This document shows, piece by piece, positions 7,300-41,580 of a stretch of 49,662 nt of DNA. Each line of letters begins with the position of its first letter. Positions within the stretch are counted from its first letter, which is position 1. Made by a program: the position numbers and the translations under genes. A model generated the notes under the pieces. It saw only the letters and a list, made by a program, of their open reading frames with translations. It made no database searches and was not told the DNA's origin. Origin of the DNA: a virus; IMG/VR virus record IMGVR_UViG_3300013126_000049, positions 1-49,662 of that record, one strand, 5' to 3'.

Positions 7300-7327
7300 T
7301 TGACAAACCCCGGTTAAACTTTATAAA
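7300..7327 (+). promoter_or_regulatory. Promoter of the MazG-like gene (leaderless type)
   Basis: TTGACA (7300-7305), a 16 bp spacer and TATAAA (7322-7327) form a near-consensus sigma-70 promoter. Only six bases separate the -10 from the ATG at 7334, which puts the predicted start point on the A of the ATG. Confidence 0.75.
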
Positions 7328-12924: not shown

Positions 12925-13731
12925 ATGACAATGATTGGCATCAAAGTGGCGGATCTGGAGGTGCTCCCGGACATCCTGGTGGAACGGTACCAGAGGAGAT
13001 ACAAAAAAGGGGACCGCCGGTGCCTGGACAAACTGGTGCTTCACAACATGAAGTTGGTGATACACCTGGCCCACCAATATTATCCTCCGGCAGGATACCA
13101 GCACGATGACCTGGTCATGGCCGGAACTCCCGGGCTATACACTGCGGCCCGTCGATGGAAGAGGAAACGGGGAGCCAGCTTCGGCACTTACGCCGCCTAT
13201 CACATCAAGCATCACATTCGCCGGTTCATTCAAAAAAACACACACGTGGTGAATGTACCGTACCGTTTCAACGATGAATTGGCCCGGGCACACCGGGAAA
13301 AACATGGAATTGAGGCGGAGCTGGGCCACGGGATAATGGAGGATGATCAGCATCTCAGCTCCATGGCACAACGCACGTTCAGCCGTGCTGCGCAGCGCGT
13401 GAACATTGACGGTGCAACCGATCCTGAAACCGGCGAGCCCAGTCCCATGGATCTGGCAGATCCATCCGCTGAAGCGCCAGCATTTGGCCCGGAGGAAATA
13501 ATGGTGATTCATAATTTGATAAAGGAACTGCCGCCGCGTCTTCAGACCATACTGCGGGCCCGTTTTGGTTTTGATGATCCGGATATCATCCCCACACTGG
13601 AAACACTGGCAGGAAAGTTGGGGGTTACCCGGGAACGTGTTCGTCAACTTGAAATGACGGCCGTATCCAAATTAAAGAAACGTCTGCTGCATCTTAGCAA
13701 ACGGGACAACCTGCAGCTGCTGCCCCGGTAA
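12925..13731 (+). CDS. RNA polymerase sigma factor, sigma-70 family
   Basis: 268 residues. Region 2 is clear at about 36-105: HNMKLVIHLAHQYYPPAGY, then QHDDLVMAGTPGLYTAARRW and RGASFGTYAAYHIKHHIRR, matching the core-binding and -10-binding helices. Region 4 (about 200-255) has ELPPRLQTILRARFGF, TLETLAGKLGVTRERVRQLE and VSKLKKRL, the -35-binding helix-turn-helix. Region 1 is absent and the linker is short. It should redirect host RNA polymerase to phage promoters. A TCTAWTAGA element lies just downstream, and 11.6-14.7 kb holds several copies of that sequence, a candidate target. Confidence 0.93.
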   Translation: MTMIGIKVADLEVLPDILVERYQRRYKKGDRRCLDKLVLHNMKLVIHLAHQYYPPAGYQHDDLVMAGTPGLYTAARRWKRKRGASFGTYAAYHIKHHIRRFIQKNTHVVNVPYRFNDELARAHREKHGIEAELGHGIMEDDQHLSSMAQRTFSRAAQRVNIDGATDPETGEPSPMDLADPSAEAPAFGPEEIMVIHNLIKELPPRLQTILRARFGFDDPDIIPTLETLAGKLGVTRERVRQLEMTAVSKLKKRLLHLSKRDNLQLLPR

Positions 13732-15985: not shown

Positions 15986-17044
15986 ATGAGCAACACCAAT
16001 AACCAGACAGATACGAAACCAGCAAGCGGGGGAGTGATGAACCTCGCTCACAGCGAAACCAATCTGACCAAGGTCAGCGAGATTGCCATCCCCGATCTTT
16101 TCAATCGGCGGTTGAAAACTGGCAACGAGATGTTGGACAAAATCTTTGGGGGCGAAGGTTTGCTTCCCTCGATGGTGTTCACACTTGCAGCGGGGGCGGG
16201 ACTTGGCAAGACCACCTTCCTCCTTCAAATGCTGAACAATATGACCAAGGTGGGAATCAAGACCGCCTATATCTCGGGTGAGGAAAGCCGTGAGATGTTG
16301 GCATTCACTTGTCGCCGTCTCGGGTTGAAGGATGTGAATCTGGCAATCCAAACCGATGTGGACAAGGTTATCGAACTGATGGAGCAAGTGGACGTGATGG
16401 TTGTGGACAGCTTTCAATGTCTCACCACCACCAAGAAGATGAATGCTCGGGAGAAGGAAAGCTATTGTCTCCACGAACTCATCAAGTGTGCCAAGAAAAC
16501 CGAATGCGTGTTGGGCTTGGTTCTTCACGTCACCAAGAGCAACAACTATCGGGGTTCGACGCTCATTCCTCACGCCGTGGACGCAAACTTTATGATGCGT
16601 TCGGGTGTGACCGACGAGGATGTGCGGGTGATTTACAGCACCAAGAACCGCTACGGCAAGCTCTACAATGTGGAACTTCGCCTCGGACACAACGGATTCG
16701 ATCTGGACAATGCGGTGCGGGTGAATGACGGAACCGCCCCTGCTCAAATCGACCCTCGCAAGGTTCGCTGGCAAGAGGATTTGAAAAAGGTTCTCGCCCT
16801 TGCCGAACCCATCAAGCAAACCGATGTGACCAATGCGGTTGATGGGAATGTTCAGCGGGGTTATCTCATCATCCGACAACTCATCCGAGAGGGCAAAGTG
16901 ATGAAGGAAGGTCGGGGTGAGGAAGCAGTCTACAAGCTCACCGATGCTGGCAAAGCCAGCCTCGCCCAACTCAACGAGAAGGGCGATGAGGCGGGAGATG
17001 ACCCTGCGGTGGAGGGTGAGGTGGCCGAGGGGGAGCAGGTTTGA
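15986..17044 (+). CDS. RadA/Sms-like RecA-family ATPase
   Basis: 352 residues. Walker A is AAGAGLGKTTF (about 67-77), followed by AYISGEES (the RadA YVSGEES motif). Walker B is VMVVDSFQ (about 137-144). LVLHVTKSN and the diagnostic KNRYG (about 220) complete the RadA pattern. The N-terminal zinc finger and C-terminal Lon-like domain of bacterial RadA are missing. Instead the C-terminus carries a winged-helix-like region (TDVTNAVDGNVQRGYLIIRQLIREG) and an acidic tail. RadA drives branch migration in recombination; a phage recombinase or helicase role is inferred. Upstream, TTGCTA and a TCTAAT -10 lie nine bases before the ATG. Confidence 0.85.
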   Translation: MSNTNNQTDTKPASGGVMNLAHSETNLTKVSEIAIPDLFNRRLKTGNEMLDKIFGGEGLLPSMVFTLAAGAGLGKTTFLLQMLNNMTKVGIKTAYISGEESREMLAFTCRRLGLKDVNLAIQTDVDKVIELMEQVDVMVVDSFQCLTTTKKMNAREKESYCLHELIKCAKKTECVLGLVLHVTKSNNYRGSTLIPHAVDANFMMRSGVTDEDVRVIYSTKNRYGKLYNVELRLGHNGFDLDNAVRVNDGTAPAQIDPRKVRWQEDLKKVLALAEPIKQTDVTNAVDGNVQRGYLIIRQLIREGKVMKEGRGEEAVYKLTDAGKASLAQLNEKGDEAGDDPAVEGEVAEGEQV

Positions 17045-17105
17045 AAACCTGCCGACCCGCTTGGCAACGCTATCGGCAACTTGAACTGGTGTTAGCTCAT
17101 AGAAT

Positions 17106-17150
17106 CCCCGCGAGGGGTGAGGGGGGTGCGGTTCGAATCCGCATCCCTCA
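17106..17150 (+). ncRNA. tRNA-like minihelix (acceptor plus T-arm only)
   Basis: TGCGG-TTCGAAT-CCGCA (17127-17143) is a perfect T-arm with the invariant TTCGA loop. It continues straight into TCCCTCA (17144-17150). This pairs with TGAGGGG (17118-17124), forming an acceptor-like stem with only two extra G residues between. A CCCC-GCGA-GGGG hairpin (17106-17117) abuts it. No 5' half with D-arm and anticodon could be folded, so this is not a normal tRNA. It may be a decayed tRNA or a tRNA mimic. Confidence 0.5.
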
Positions 17151-17193
17151 AAAGTTTGTGGCCGAGCAATACCTTTTTGATTTTGAAAACAAA

Positions 17194-17220
17194 TTGACAA
17201 TCAAACAATCCCAATATAAT
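17194..17220 (+). promoter_or_regulatory. Promoter of the bS21-like gene
   Basis: TTGACA (17194-17199), 15 bp and TATAAT (17215-17220) are both perfect sigma-70 hexamers with a short spacer. The ATG is 11 bases further, leaving a leader of about five bases with no Shine-Dalgarno site. Confidence 0.7.
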
Positions 17221-17231
17221 AATAACAAAAC

Positions 17232-17483
17232 ATGGTAGATCGTGCCGTATACAATGTGACGGAAAGGGACAGGCAAAACAATGAAAGCTTTGCCCGAGCC
17301 ATCAAGCGTTTCACCGCAAAAGTGAACGAGGAATGCGTGGTGGAGGAAGCAAGAATGCGTTCAAAGAAAATGAAGAAGAAAGCATTACAACAAGCCAAAC
17401 AGCAGTTGAAGTTGAAGATGTGGAAAGATTACAAGTGGAAGCCCCCTTTCAAGCACGATAATCGAATAGGCAAAACGGAGTAG
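17232..17483 (+). CDS. rpsU: Ribosomal protein bS21-like
   Basis: 83 residues. After a short N-terminal extension the motif NNESFARAIKRFTAKVNEECVVEEARMRSKK follows bS21: N-E-S-x-x-x-A-(I/L)-(K/R)-R-F, a Lys/Cys helix, E-x-R and a long Lys-rich helix (MKKKALQQAKQQLKLKMWK). bS21 is the last protein on the 30S subunit. It lies beside the 3' end of 16S rRNA that pairs with Shine-Dalgarno sites. Phage bS21 genes are known from other large and aquatic phages and are proposed to replace the host subunit. It is followed directly by the tRNA cluster. Family assignment rests on my reading of the motif. Confidence 0.75.
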   Translation: MVDRAVYNVTERDRQNNESFARAIKRFTAKVNEECVVEEARMRSKKMKKKALQQAKQQLKLKMWKDYKWKPPFKHDNRIGKTE

Positions 17484-17492
17484 CGAGGTTTC

Positions 17493-17583
17493 GCCTCCGT
17501 AGTTTAACTGGTCAAAACCCCACTCTTATAAGGTGGCCGCTCTAGATTTGGGCAAGATGTTGGTTCGAATCCAACCGGAGGTA
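17493..17583 (+). tRNA. tRNA with UAU anticodon and long variable arm
   Basis: The acceptor stem is GCCTCCG/CGGAGGT with discriminator A. The D-arm is GTTT..AAAC with GG in the loop. The anticodon arm is CCACT-CTTATAA-GGTGG, giving anticodon TAT (Ile, AUA codons). A 22-base variable region can form a GCTC/GGGC arm, and the T-arm is GTTGG-TTCGAAT-CCAAC. A long variable arm is normal for Leu, Ser and Tyr tRNAs rather than Ile, so the amino-acid identity is open. CCA is not encoded. Confidence 0.75.
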
Positions 17584-17586
17584 AAA

Positions 17587-17658
17587 GGGAACATAGTTAA
17601 ATGGTATAACAGCAAACTCATAATTTGCCAATTCCCGGTTCAACCCCGGGTGTTCCCA
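17587..17658 (+). tRNA. tRNA-Met(CAU)
   Basis: The acceptor is GGGAACA/TGTTCCC with discriminator A. The anticodon arm is GCAAA-CTCATAA-TTTGC with anticodon CAT. The T-arm is CCCGG-TTCAACC-CCGGG. It could also be an Ile tRNA if C34 is lysidinylated. The 3' half is read antisense by the end of the adjacent HNH gene. CCA is not encoded. Confidence 0.85.
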
Positions 17659-18175
17659 GTTCAATTATTCCACCATGATATTCGGCATGACAGTTACTGC
17701 AAAGTATTACACATTTATCCAATTCTTGTTTTAATGTTTCAAAATTATAATTTTTAAGATCGGAGATAGCATATTCTTTTTTGGTCTTATCAAGATGATG
17801 AAACTCCAATGCACCAAAATATTTGCTATACCCACAGGAAACACATTTACCTCCCTTGTATTCCAAACATTGTTGCTTTAACATTTTTTGTCTTTTAAAA
17901 GTGCGTTTACAATTGCAAATTTTACACCACGGATGAAACTTTCCATTCTTTTCTACATAAAAATTATGTTTGTTAACTTCTTTTTTCTCCTTACATTGTG
18001 CACAAATTTTATATGTTTTATTGTTTTCTTTAAATGCGCTATTTCTTCCTTTTGTTTTTAGCGAATATTTTCTTAGCCAATATCTGGTTGCTGTCTGACT
18101 TTTACCAATCAGTTTGGCTATTTTGTATGAAGACAATCTTTGTTCAACCAATGATTCGAGGACTTTCTTATCCAT
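17618..18175 (-). CDS. HNH endonuclease with zinc ribbons, ending inside a tRNA gene
   Basis: 185 residues. There is an N-terminal helix-turn-helix (about 9-36) and paired cysteines C58/C61 and C84/C87. The HNH-type core starts with CVSCGYSKYF and has FHHLDK (about 125-130) and CVILCSNCHAEYH (about 155-167). The reading frame ends at 17618 inside the complement of tRNA-Met, so its last 13-14 residues are encoded by tRNA sequence. This suggests insertion at a tRNA target site. It is AT-rich relative to the tRNAs. Such free-standing enzymes spread to copies of the site lacking them. Confidence 0.85.
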   Translation of the reverse strand: MDKKVLESLVEQRLSSYKIAKLIGKSQTATRYWLRKYSLKTKGRNSAFKENNKTYKICAQCKEKKEVNKHNFYVEKNGKFHPWCKICNCKRTFKRQKMLKQQCLEYKGGKCVSCGYSKYFGALEFHHLDKTKKEYAISDLKNYNFETLKQELDKCVILCSNCHAEYHGGIIELGTPGVEPGIGKL

Positions 18176-18234
18176 AAGTATATTTAGCTTGAAAGTTGTA
18201 TAAAATTTAATAACTTTAAGCTATATATGATTAT

Positions 18235-18317
18235 GGGCAGATACCGAAGTGGCCAAACGGGGGAGACTGTAAATCTCTTGGCTTACGCCTTCAGTGGTTC
18301 GAATCCACTTCTGCCCA
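18235..18317 (+). tRNA. tRNA-Tyr(GUA)
   Basis: The acceptor is GGGCAGA/TCTGCCC with discriminator A. The anticodon arm is GGAGA-CTGTAAA-TCTCT with anticodon GTA. It has the long variable arm expected for Tyr and a T-arm GTGG-TTCGAAT-CCAC. It is the first of four closely spaced tRNAs. Confidence 0.88.
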
Positions 18318-18320
18318 ATT

Positions 18321-18392
18321 TGCTCGGTCGACAAGCGGTAAGTCAGCATACTGTTAATGTGCCCATCGTAGGTTCGAATCCTACCCGAGCAG
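18321..18392 (+). tRNA. tRNA-Asn(GUU)
   Basis: The acceptor is TGCTCGG/CCGAGCA with discriminator G. The anticodon arm is GCATA-CTGTTAA-TGTGC with anticodon GTT. The T-arm is GTAGG-TTCGAAT-CCTAC. It begins three bases after tRNA-Tyr, so both are probably processed from one transcript. Confidence 0.88.
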
Positions 18393-18402
18393 TAAAATTT
18401 AT

Positions 18403-18485
18403 GCCAGAGTCGCATAGTGGTCGATTGCGCCGGTTTTGTAAACCGGATCCGAAAGGACACGCAGGTTCGAATCCTGTCTCTGGCT
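18403..18485 (+). tRNA. tRNA with UGU anticodon (Thr) and extended variable arm
   Basis: The acceptor is GCCAGAG/CTCTGGC with discriminator T. The anticodon arm is CCGGT-TTTGTAA-ACCGG with anticodon TGT (Thr, ACA). The variable region is about 14 bases and includes a TCC-GAAA-GGA hairpin. The T-arm is GCAGG-TTCGAAT-CCTGT. The variable arm is unusual for Thr. Confidence 0.8.
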
Positions 18486-18491
18486 CATTTT

Positions 18492-18565
18492 GCTCCCATG
18501 GTGTAATTGGTTAACACATCGTGCTTTCACCGCGAAGACTGTCGGTTCAATCCCGACTGGGAGTA
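18492..18565 (+). tRNA. tRNA-Glu(UUC)
   Basis: The acceptor is GCTCCCA/TGGGAGT with discriminator A. The D-arm is GTGT..ACAC. The anticodon arm is TCGTG-CTTTCAC-CGCGA with anticodon TTC. The T-arm is GTCGG-TTCAATC-CCGAC. It is the last tRNA of the cluster. Confidence 0.88.
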
Positions 18566-18585
18566 AATTATTATAAAATATATTC

Positions 18586-33848: not shown

Positions 33849-33877
33849 ATTTTAAATAGGGGGGGGGGAAATGTCAA
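33849..33877 (-). promoter_or_regulatory. Promoter of the HNH-AP2 pair (leaderless type)
   Basis: Minus strand: TTGACA (33872-33877), 17 bp with a run of C, and TAAAAT (33849-33854), then AAGGGG and ATG. AAGGGG could also serve weakly as a ribosome-binding site. Confidence 0.65.
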
Positions 33878-36167: not shown

Positions 36168-36293
36168 CGTTTGTATTTACTTTTTTCCCTCGAAGAAAAA
36201 GTTTTTCACTGCACAAACGTAAATAAAAATGTATCGCAAAATCTTTTCTGTATCAGAAAAAAAGTTGATATCTGAAAAGTTGTGGTAAAAATA

Positions 36294-38567
36294 ATGACAG
36301 CATCCATGAACAAGAATATTTTGGTCAAGAAACGAAACGGAAAAAACGAAAAGTTTGATATCAGTAAAATCGACCGGGTGATTGAATGGGCCATCAACGG
36401 CTACACGGGCGTGAGCATGACCGATGTGGAGATTAATGCCAAAATCAACCTGCATGACGGCATCAGCACCAAAGAAATTCATCAACTGATCATTGAAAGC
36501 GCGGCCAATCTGATCAGCGCGGAAAATCCCAACTACCAGTTTGTGGCAGGTCGGTTGCTCAATTATCAACTTCGCAAAGAAGTATGGGGAGGAAAGCATC
36601 CGCCCCGTCTCAAGGATTTTCTGCATGTGGGCGTGAAAAAGAAAATCTATGACAGTGTTCTTTTGGAAAAATACAGCGAGGATGAAATCAACAAACTGGG
36701 CGAAGCCATTGATCACGACCGGGATTATCTTTTCACCTATGCCGGAATCAAACAGCTTTGCGACAAATATCTGATCAAAGACCGGGTCAACGGAAATATT
36801 CATGAAACGCCCCAGTTTGCATACATGCTGATCAGCATGACCGCATTCATGAACTATCCGGAAGAAACCCGGCAAAATTATGTGATTCGTTTTTACAATG
36901 CCATCAGCAAACACAAAATCAATTTGCCTACTCCAGTCATGGCCGGTGTTCGAACCACCAGCCGCAATTATGCCAGCTGCTGCTTGATCGGGGTGGATGA
37001 CACCCGGGAAAGCATCACCAGCAGCGCCACGGCCGTGAGCATGGCCACGGCCAATCGTTGCGGTATTGGCATTGATGTGAGCCGTATCCGGGCCATGGGC
37101 AGTCCCGTCAAGAACGGCGAAGTGGTGCATACCGGACTGATTCCGTTCCTGAAGATTTACGAAGCCAGCGTCAAAGCATGGCAGCAAAACGGACTGCGGG
37201 GCGGAAGCGCAACCTGCAACCTGCAGTGGTGGCATTATGAGATTGAAGATATTGTGGTGTTGAAAAACAATGCCGGTACCGATGATAACCGGGTGCGCAA
37301 GCTGGATTATACTGTGGGCATGAGCAAGCTGTTTTATGAGCGGGTGCGCAAAAACGAGGATGTGACGCTGTTCAGCCCCCATGAAGTGCCGGAACTTTAT
37401 GATGCATGGGGCACAGAGGATTTTGACAAGGTTTACAAAGAGTGTGAAGGCAAGCGTCTGCGCATCAAAAAGCGGATCAATGCCCGCAAGCTTTTTGGCA
37501 CCATCGTCAAAGAACGGGTGGAAACTGGTCGCATTTATATTCTTAACGTGGACAATGCCAATGAACACAGTGCATGGTCCGACAAGGTGACCATGAGCAA
37601 TCTTTGCACTGAGGTGATTCATCCCACCATTCCCATGCGGGATTACAACGATAGTGAGGCGGAAATTGGCATGTGCATATTGAGTGCCATCAACATGCTG
37701 GAAATAAAAAGCTGGGCCGATCTGGAAAAGACCTGTGATCTGACTGTGCGTTTCCTTGACGAAATTATTGATCTGCAAGATTACTTTAATCCGGCCGCCA
37801 AGAACTTTGCCAGCAAACGGCGCAGTCTGGGTGTGGGCATCACCAATCTGGCAGCGTTTCTGGCCAAGAACGAGTGTCGTTATGATGATGACAAAAGTCT
37901 GACCCTATTGGATGAATGGATGGAATATTTCCAATATTCTCTACTGAAAAGCAGTGTTCAGCTTGCCAAGGAAAAAGGAAGGTGTGAAAAGTTTGGTCAC
38001 ACCAAATATTCAAAAGGCATTCTTCCCATTGACACATTCAAGGACAGCGTCAAGAATCTGACCCGTCGCAAGTTTGCCTGTGATTGGGAAGCTCTTCGAA
38101 CTGATATTAAAGAGCATGGTTTGCGGCACAGCACACTCAGCAGCTGCATGCCTTGTGAGAGCAGCAGCGTGATTCAAAGCTCAACCAACGGCGTGGAACC
38201 AATTCGTTCCATCATCACATATAAAATGAGCAAGATGGGCAAGCTGCCCGTGCTTGTTCCGGGTATTGGCAAATTTGACAAGAATTACCAGCTTGCTTAT
38301 GATCTGCGCGACAACAAAGGACTGATCAACATCAATGCAATCATTCAAAAATACATCGATATGGCCATCAGTACGAATGTTTATTACAATTATAGCCATT
38401 ATGAAAATAATGTATTACCTGACGCGGTCGTGATGAAAGAGATTATGTACGCGTATAGTATGGGTTTAATAAGTCTTTATTATCTGAATAGTGATGACGG
38501 TGATAAAGAACAGTTGATGAATCAGAAAGAAGACCGGGATTGCAGCAGCGGAGCTTGCAAATTATAA
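36294..38567 (+). CDS. nrdA: Ribonucleoside-diphosphate reductase alpha subunit, class Ia
   Basis: 757 residues from ATG 36294 (in-frame codons a little upstream are possible). An N-terminal ATP-cone (KNILVKKRNGKNEKFDISKI, to about 75) precedes the catalytic barrel. NYASCCLIG carries the first redox Cys, MSNLCTEV the thiyl-radical Cys and MCILSAINMLE the partner Cys. MPCESSSVIQSSTNGVEPIR is the phosphate-site motif, and the C-terminal CSSGACKL is the shuttle CxxxC. It reduces ribonucleotides to deoxyribonucleotides with NrdB, 24 bp downstream. Complete and intact. Confidence 0.97.
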   Translation: MTASMNKNILVKKRNGKNEKFDISKIDRVIEWAINGYTGVSMTDVEINAKINLHDGISTKEIHQLIIESAANLISAENPNYQFVAGRLLNYQLRKEVWGGKHPPRLKDFLHVGVKKKIYDSVLLEKYSEDEINKLGEAIDHDRDYLFTYAGIKQLCDKYLIKDRVNGNIHETPQFAYMLISMTAFMNYPEETRQNYVIRFYNAISKHKINLPTPVMAGVRTTSRNYASCCLIGVDDTRESITSSATAVSMATANRCGIGIDVSRIRAMGSPVKNGEVVHTGLIPFLKIYEASVKAWQQNGLRGGSATCNLQWWHYEIEDIVVLKNNAGTDDNRVRKLDYTVGMSKLFYERVRKNEDVTLFSPHEVPELYDAWGTEDFDKVYKECEGKRLRIKKRINARKLFGTIVKERVETGRIYILNVDNANEHSAWSDKVTMSNLCTEVIHPTIPMRDYNDSEAEIGMCILSAINMLEIKSWADLEKTCDLTVRFLDEIIDLQDYFNPAAKNFASKRRSLGVGITNLAAFLAKNECRYDDDKSLTLLDEWMEYFQYSLLKSSVQLAKEKGRCEKFGHTKYSKGILPIDTFKDSVKNLTRRKFACDWEALRTDIKEHGLRHSTLSSCMPCESSSVIQSSTNGVEPIRSIITYKMSKMGKLPVLVPGIGKFDKNYQLAYDLRDNKGLININAIIQKYIDMAISTNVYYNYSHYENNVLPDAVVMKEIMYAYSMGLISLYYLNSDDGDKEQLMNQKEDRDCSSGACKL

Positions 38568-38591
38568 CCCGTCTGTTATAAATAACTTCCC

Positions 38592-39656
38592 ATGAAAACG
38601 GTTTTAAATTTGAAAAATATCGACACCACTAAACAGCCATTGTTTCTGGGGGAAGATCTGAATTTGCAAAGATATGATCGTTTCAAATATCCCATTTTCT
38701 TTGAATTATTCAAAAAACAAAACGAGAATTTCTGGTGGCCCCATGAAACCACACTGGCCAAAGATCGTAGCGATTACAAGGATCTGACGGATACCGAGCG
38801 GTTTGTTTTTGACAGCAATCTGCGTTTTCAAACACTTGGAGACAGCATGCTTTCCCGGAGTATTCATTCCCTCAAGGAATATGTGAGCAATCCAGAACTG
38901 GAAATTTGCATGAATACTTGGGCGCAATTCGAAGGCATTCACAGCTATTCTTATTCTTATCTTTTAAACAATGTGTATCCGGATGCCACCAAGTTCTTTG
39001 ACAGCATCATGGAAGACAAGGAAATACTTGAGAGGGCCGAACTGATCCGAAGCAACTACGATAAAATCCTAGGCGATGATGAAAAGAAAGACATCAAGCA
39101 AAAAATATTCGATTGCATTCTTTCCGTGAATGTGATGGAAGGTCTGGTGTTTTATGTCAGCTTTGCCTGCAGTTTCTATTTTGGTTATCGGGGCAAAATG
39201 GAGGGAAATGCAAAAATCATCAAGTTTATTCAGCGGGATGAAGCCCTTCATTTTGGCGTGACTCAGAATCTTTTGAAAATATTGCGGGATGAAGACAAGG
39301 AAGGATTCGCCTCGATTGCCAAAAAGAGCGAAGATAAGATTTACGAAATATACAAACAAGCCACAGAAAACGAAACAGAATGGGCCCGATATCTTTTCAG
39401 CAAAGGCAATCTGCTTGGTTTGAATGAAGAGGTGATGACTGGATACAGCAAATGGCTTTGTGACAATCGTCTGCGTTCTCTTGGTTACAAAAAGATTTAC
39501 AATCAAAAAGAAAATCCATTGTCCGGATGGCTGGACAGTTATATGGACAGCAGCAAGGTACAGGCAGCACCACAAGAAACGGAGTTGCAATCATATAAAA
39601 TTGCAGCACGAGATACAACTGTTACAGATAGTGATTTTGAAGATATAAAATTATAA
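38592..39656 (+). CDS. nrdB: Ribonucleoside-diphosphate reductase beta subunit, class Ia
   Basis: 354 residues. All metal ligands of the E. coli enzyme are present by alignment: Asp in TLGDS, Glu and His in FEGIHSYSY, Glu in VMEGLVFYVSF, and Glu/His in RDEALH. The radical Tyr is the last Tyr of HSYSY. MEGNAKIIKFIQRDEALH is typical. It houses the di-iron tyrosyl radical used by NrdA. TATAAATA occurs nine bases before the ATG. A GIY-YIG endonuclease gene follows. Confidence 0.96.
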   Translation: MKTVLNLKNIDTTKQPLFLGEDLNLQRYDRFKYPIFFELFKKQNENFWWPHETTLAKDRSDYKDLTDTERFVFDSNLRFQTLGDSMLSRSIHSLKEYVSNPELEICMNTWAQFEGIHSYSYSYLLNNVYPDATKFFDSIMEDKEILERAELIRSNYDKILGDDEKKDIKQKIFDCILSVNVMEGLVFYVSFACSFYFGYRGKMEGNAKIIKFIQRDEALHFGVTQNLLKILRDEDKEGFASIAKKSEDKIYEIYKQATENETEWARYLFSKGNLLGLNEEVMTGYSKWLCDNRLRSLGYKKIYNQKENPLSGWLDSYMDSSKVQAAPQETELQSYKIAARDTTVTDSDFEDIKL

Positions 39657-40884: not shown

Positions 40885-41580
40885 TCAATAGTCTTCTTCA
40901 AGCTTTTTCTCCTCGGTCCATCCAAGGGCCATGCTGATGTTTGGAAAAATCTCAATCAACCTGTTTTTGATTTGTACAGCCAACAACCGATGTTCTTTTT
41001 GCGTGTCTTTGTTTGCCCTCAAATTCACATAATGAATCCAGCTTCGGAGGCTGCCTTTCATGTATAGTGTGGTCTGTGTGGAAAGAGGCAAAACCATGCG
41101 GGCCACTTCTTTGGCCACACCATTCCGAAGCAGCAATTCATAGCAGTGCTCTGCCGACTTGGTTGTTTCCTGTACAAGATTGGTCAGTATGCTGTGTTGC
41201 TGACTGGTTACTGGAATGACTTCCTCTCCAACCTGACGATTTTTGTCCCCTTGTAAACGCAGTTCAATATGTTCAAAATCGTTTACTTTGCTGTAACGCT
41301 GGCTAAATTCCTGAAAGCTGAAGCTGCGATGGCGTATGATTTGGGATGCTATTGCCCTGCTGGTTTTGATTTCAAATGTTGCGTCCACCATTTCAAATGG
41401 ACTCCAATGATTATGAGTGATCAGATATTTGATCAGTTTGGGAGAAGTTTCCCGGTTCATTTGGTTTTCCGGATTGCTGACCCGGGCAATATAAACAATC
41501 AGATCTTCGGCACTGAATTCTTCCCGAATCAGTGGTGTAAGTTCCGGCTTTGTAATGCTGATGAGTCGGGCAAATCCCAT
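40885..41580 (-). CDS. thyX: Flavin-dependent thymidylate synthase
   Basis: 231 residues. RHRSFSFQEFS (about 83-93) is the ThyX signature RHRx7S; it is preceded by WSPFEMVDATFEI and followed by ARMVLPLSTQTTLYMKGSLR, containing the Arg and Ser that bind dUMP. It makes dTMP from dUMP using methylene-tetrahydrofolate, FAD and NADPH. Lying after the RNR genes, it completes a dNTP module. Its promoter ends seven bases before the ATG. Confidence 0.96.
   Translation of the reverse strand: MGFARLISITKPELTPLIREEFSAEDLIVYIARVSNPENQMNRETSPKLIKYLITHNHWSPFEMVDATFEIKTSRAIASQIIRHRSFSFQEFSQRYSKVNDFEHIELRLQGDKNRQVGEEVIPVTSQQHSILTNLVQETTKSAEHCYELLLRNGVAKEVARMVLPLSTQTTLYMKGSLRSWIHYVNLRANKDTQKEHRLLAVQIKNRLIEIFPNISMALGWTEEKKLEEDY

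Follow-up and report, generated by a model that had tools for sequence, protein, structure and literature searches.

A deeply diverged bS21-like gene heading a conserved tRNA cluster in a viral family with many leaderless-looking genes

The window analyzed here, a 49,662-base IMG/VR virus record that is probably a fragment, carries a real open reading frame on its plus strand at 17232–17483, which encodes a bS21-like protein of 83 amino acids. The product is small and highly basic (10.1 kDa, pI 10.15). The range 17194–17483 given in an earlier sequence-only reading covers the promoter together with this frame. The promoter consists of a −35 element TTGACA (17194–17199) and a −10 element TATAAT (17215–17220), the latter with an alternative register AATAAT at 17218–17223. 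Upstream lie a short open reading frame (17041–17238, plus strand) and a gene for a RadA/KaiC-like ATPase (15986–17044, plus strand), which is the conserved upstream neighbor of bS21. The bS21 promoter lies within the 3′ end of the short frame, which extends 7 nt into the bS21 gene. Its product ends in an AEQYLFDF-like motif that occurs at the same place in relatives, and it has no match in Pfam. Within the short frame, the coding sequence resembles a portion of a tRNA T-arm (GGTTCGAATCC). The region around 17041–17150 looks tRNA-like but was rejected as a tRNA because it codes for this frame.

Three scans of viral contigs yielded 28 further loci (L002–L026 and L032–L034), which together with the window form the family described below. 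The bS21 gene is present in every ATPase-bearing contig that extends to the bS21 position. L035, which has the ATPase and more than 1 kb downstream of it, was considered as an exception without bS21 and rejected, as the contig stops where bS21 would start.

Six tRNA genes, detected by ARAGORN and Rfam, follow the bS21 gene on the plus strand: tRNA-Ile (TAT) at 17493–17583, tRNA-Met (CAT) at 17587–17658, tRNA-Tyr (GTA) at 18234–18318, tRNA-Asn (GTT) at 18320–18393, tRNA-Thr (TGT) at 18403–18486, and tRNA-Glu (TTC) at 18491–18566. The first of them starts 9 nt past the bS21 stop codon, and the gap measures 5–12 nt in all 29 loci, where the usual set is again Ile(TAT), Met, Tyr, Asn, Thr(TGT), and Glu. 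The bS21 gene and the tRNA cluster are one conserved unit, and we infer that they share a single transcript. An HNH endonuclease gene (17618–18175, minus strand; PHROG phrog_2255, E 4.8e-33) lies within the tRNA cluster of the window. A 91% identical copy of this gene is found in the family contig G003, and the compact tRNA clusters of relatives leave no room for it. It is a probable homing element inserted into the cluster, outside the bS21–tRNA module.

The bS21 promoter can be read either as TTGACA-15 nt-TATAAT (12/12 matches, with a short spacer) or as TTGACA-18 nt-AATAAT (11/12). An exact TTGACA stands upstream of bS21 in 28 of the 29 loci (TTGATA in L025), at 36–38 nt from the bS21 start in 26 of them (32 nt in L010 and 53 nt in L024); the number of independent promoters is smaller than 29, since many loci are near-duplicates and the distinct coding sequences number 21. 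In most loci the −10 element ends 8–11 nt before the bS21 ATG, and transcription is predicted to start about 2–5 nt before the ATG; the bS21 leader would therefore be only a few nucleotides long. This is predicted to be a conserved promoter of the bacterial type that leaves almost no 5′ leader. A longer transcript across bS21 could be fed by the upstream frame at 17041–17238, and bS21 would not be leaderless in that transcript.

The same spacing recurs throughout the family. Across 374 kb of family DNA we counted 63 cases of TTGACA at 33–38 nt before an ATG-initiated frame, where a flat distribution would give 9, and TTGACA ranks first among all 180 permutations of its letters in the same distance test. 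A comparison set, 513 kb of sequence surrounding the bS21 genes of other viruses, gave 11 against 8 expected. When the family promoters were aligned on the start codon, the commonest bases were T at −12, A at −11 (68%), and T at −7. We read this pattern as a TAnnnT box sited so that transcription would begin at the start codon, the same layout that has been published as the signature of leaderless genes in bacteria (PMC3160421). The layout is seen in the window at 7300, 10081, 23698, and 34839 on the plus strand and at 33877, 36167, and 47600 on the minus strand. Many relatives have a common extended promoter box like TTGACATTTTGnAAATAATT. Other window genes are preceded by clear or strong Shine-Dalgarno sequences; judged from these signals, leaderless and Shine-Dalgarno initiation routes coexist in the window. 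The window also encodes a sigma-70-family sigma factor with regions 2 and 4 (12925–13731), conserved at 57–59% in three other family contigs, which could drive the TAAATA boxes found 4–8 nt before start codons. The sequence-only reading was thus borne out in three descriptive points, namely the near-perfect promoter, which is conserved in relatives, the position of bS21 directly before the tRNAs, and the many genes that appear leaderless.

bS21, which sits on the platform of the 30S subunit beside the 3′ tail of the 16S rRNA, is the commonest viral ribosomal protein. The pattern from which the protein was originally named is present in the window sequence, with NESFARAIKRF in the first helix (bS21 pattern NExFxxALRRF), an E-x-R motif after the hinge (EEARMR), and a Lys-rich helix. 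An HMM search, proposed as a check of that assignment, gave a divided answer. The window protein matched Pfam PF01165 (Ribosomal_S21) with 19.5 bits (E 7.9e-4, residues 15–44), below the gathering threshold of 27 bits, and NCBIfam S21p with 17.5 bits, also under the curated cut-off; it had no significant match in the PDB or among named phages. PF01165 is matched by 20/20 aligned family members, and five relatives with 61–65% identity to the window protein (L024, L026, and L032–L034) exceed its cut-off with 27.1–34.3 bits, the sisters L032–L034 reaching 32–34 bits. With an HMM made from the bS21s of other viruses, these sisters scored 24–26 bits and the window protein 10.5, the latter near the best of 2100 shuffled decoys (11.3 bits). 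A profile-profile comparison with bS21 gave E 8e-6 at 32% identity over 44 columns. Taken alone, the window protein is ambiguous, whereas the sisters L032–L034 score unambiguously as bS21, so that its membership would follow by transitive homology through relatives about 61–65% identical to it. The bS21 ancestry of the window protein appears well supported, because all 20 aligned relatives match the family and sisters of about 62% identity score 32–34 bits. A tree that included 30 further viral bS21s placed the family as a single clade at the tip of a long branch, with 3.6 changes per column and a support of 100/100, the deep order being unsure owing to the few columns. We therefore describe the family as what appears to be a deep branch of bS21. 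A median pN/pS of 0.32 indicates that the gene is under purifying selection. Two genome scans found no cellular relatives of the family bS21, which was seen only in viral contigs.

Two landmarks of bS21 are eroded in the window's clade: the hinge Gly is Cys35 and the Lys-Pro motif is Lys48-Lys49. Both are kept in the sisters L032–L034, whose alignment to bS21 stays ungapped from helix 1, across the hinge, to the Lys-Pro motif. An aromatic C-terminal tail (W-x2-Y-x-W, PF, RI) is common to all family members and absent from the other bS21s compared; W64, Y67, W69, P72, F73, R78, I79, and T82 are invariant in 20/20 sequences. With a family-only alignment, AlphaFold predicted two helices at a mean pLDDT of 70.8. 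When other bS21s were added to the alignment, helices were predicted at 17–34, 36–43, and 49–66 with a mean pLDDT of 73.8, and the helix break falls at the bS21 hinge position. Foldseek searches with the models from both alignments against the PDB and BFVD gave no significant match. As bS21 is short and extended and takes its shape from rRNA, we do not count this result as evidence against homology.

Both phage-encoded bS21 and the takeover idea have already been published (PMC6375957, PMC9723584). The bS21 of phage HTVC008M (AGE60443) resembles the present family in being phage-encoded, in having a tRNA adjoining its gene, and in entering E. coli ribosomes (PMC6375957). Its tRNA-Gly (ACC), unannotated in the record, lies 14 nt upstream of bS21 (L027:3913–3986, KC465899.1), and the arrangement recurs in related contigs. 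Unlike the window family, HTVC008M has a near-canonical bS21 with a YEKPS motif and without the aromatic tail, its tRNA is upstream whereas the cluster here is downstream, and its phage set lacks the leaderless promoter pattern. Methylophilales phage Melnitz also has bS21 directly beside a tRNA (tRNA-Arg), and its authors propose a joint translation role for the two (PMC9004378); it differs in its single upstream tRNA, its canonical bS21 core with a long and different N-terminus, and the lack of an aromatic tail. For the bS21 of large Bacteroidetes phages, a substitution in host ribosomes that favors phage transcripts has been proposed, in line with our reading (PMC9723584). That gene is encoded on the reverse strand with structural genes around it, is expressed late, and is near the bS21 of its Bacteroidetes host (Chen et al. 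2022, PMC9723584), whereas in the window family bS21 is the first gene of a tRNA operon with a host-type promoter, and cellular relatives were not found in two scans. In two other viral groups, 18 of 79 distinct bS21s have a tRNA 12–21 nt upstream; the HTVC008M group has tRNA-Gly at this place and the Melnitz group tRNA-Arg. Such bS21-adjoining tRNAs make up 18 of the 29 tRNAs in 235 kb of these groups. The bS21–tRNA link is broader than the one Melnitz case noted (PMC9004378). The novel features here are the deep branching, the aromatic tail, a tRNA operon that opens with bS21, and its setting in a family with leaderless promoters.

On balance, we lean towards reading the window protein as a deeply diverged phage bS21 that would work in the ribosome. 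Host RNA polymerase would transcribe the gene, probably early. The N-terminal half (residues ~15–50) would occupy the bS21 site of the host ribosome, on the 30S platform next to the 3′ tail of the 16S rRNA. The aromatic tail conserved in the family would reshape the mRNA exit or the anti-Shine-Dalgarno region, changing which mRNAs are initiated, while the clustered tRNAs would help to read phage codons. By analogy, occupation of the bS21 site with an altered C-terminal tail is the most likely mechanism, because HTVC008M bS21 enters E. coli ribosomes, where it cuts activity to ~5% in a GFP assay (PMC6375957), and because loss of the C-terminus or mutation of Tyr54 in Flavobacterium johnsoniae bS21 alters mRNA selection (PMC9976891). 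Tyr54 is an aromatic residue in the C-terminal part of that bS21, a part which acts on the 16S 3′ tail (PDB 7jil; PMC9976891). When the two proteins are aligned without gaps from the Lys-Pro motif onwards, Tyr54 corresponds to Lys62 of the window protein, with the invariant Trp64 two residues beyond; an equivalence of Trp64 and Tyr54 is only a guess.

The direction of such a change deserves care. In E. coli, 61S ribosomes are missing bS21 together with other proteins and choose leaderless mRNAs (PMC4929434, PMC12186496), and E. coli ribosomes without bS21, bS1, and uS2 leave canonical mRNAs unread and still read leaderless ones (PMC4929434). bS21 supports Shine-Dalgarno initiation in E. coli, which cuts against the simplest leaderless link. 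Given the preference for leaderless mRNAs in E. coli ribosomes that lack bS21 among other proteins, there is no obvious reason for a phage bS21 to promote leaderless genes; it may instead aid those with a Shine-Dalgarno sequence, block host initiation, or do both. The translation-takeover module envisaged in the sequence-only reading accordingly keeps its bS21–tRNA unit and its conserved promoter, but its simplest link to leaderless genes runs contrary to the published data (PMC4929434, PMC12186496, PMC5876184).

An unlikely but serious alternative is that the protein is a bS21 descendant that has left the ribosome and acts as an RNA-binding protein on tRNA precursors or other phage RNA. The fixed place directly before the tRNAs, the fact that the window's clade lacks the hinge Gly and the Lys-Pro motif and has a new conserved tail, and an extra-ribosomal role proposed for bS21 in the OLE RNA complex (PMC12054373) are in its favor, but the bS21-matching region is well conserved along with the tail. 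Proximity to tRNAs also needs no exit from the ribosome, because the tRNA-adjoining bS21s of HTVC008M and Melnitz are near-canonical. Somewhat less probable still is host shut-off, in which the phage protein would replace host bS21 in the 30S subunit and poison initiation on host mRNAs rather than promote phage mRNAs. The low activity of E. coli ribosomes carrying HTVC008M bS21 (~5%, PMC6375957), the exclusive reading of leaderless over canonical mRNAs by ribosomes without bS21, bS1, and uS2 (PMC4929434), and the many leaderless genes of the phage family would fit this reading; yet the 5% figure may reflect species mismatch, and a general block would also harm the many phage genes with a strong Shine-Dalgarno sequence. 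To a scenario without any swap we give a similarly low probability: a host without its own bS21 and with many leaderless mRNAs, for example an actinobacterium, would gain bS21 from the phage, the near-leaderless bS21 mRNA would be read by the unmodified ribosome, and the changed ribosome would then efficiently read the Shine-Dalgarno-led operons at about 21–32 kb of the window. Chance resemblance of an unrelated Lys-rich helical protein is very improbable: the window sequence is below every curated cut-off and has no fold match, but this idea appears largely refuted by the ~62%-identical sisters, with 32–34 bits for PF01165 and 24–26 bits against 11.3 for decoys with the viral-bS21 HMM, and by their ungapped alignment to bS21 from the first helix to the Lys-Pro motif.

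Under the favored ribosomal reading, a strongly altered bS21 behind a strong promoter suggests that the phage may fit its own part into host ribosomes. A bS21 with a new tail that heads a tRNA operon, with leaderless and Shine-Dalgarno genes side by side, makes an unusually clear test case, in which ribosomes with and without the phage bS21 could reveal its effect on the choice of initiation route. The family-wide leaderless promoter pattern is worth study in itself and is a clue to the host.

Actinobacteria and Deinococcus-Thermus are the groups in which leaderless genes are most frequent (PMC3160421), and Mycobacterium smegmatis lacks bS21 and has ~25% leaderless mRNAs (PMC5876184). Corynebacterium glutamicum, used as a control genome, gave no Ribosomal_S21 match. 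The absence of WhiB, a common actinophage gene, is weak evidence against an actinobacterial host, which we regard as a lead and not a result. The two genome scans for cellular bS21 relatives, having found none, gave no host clue; a terminase search in the family contigs found none, and comparisons of the tRNA-cluster DNA and ThyX gave distant, mixed matches only. L002, the closest relative of the window, comes from freshwater Lake Tanganyika (IMG 3300020179), and L018 from freshwater Lake Soyang (IMG 3300011116). The window carries a class I ribonucleotide reductase pair and ThyX (36282–39656 and 40885–41580), whose closest sequences, at ~50–56% identity, are those of cyanophages and Pelagibacter phages. 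A group I intron is found at 268–491 (Rfam RF00028, 63.5 bits).
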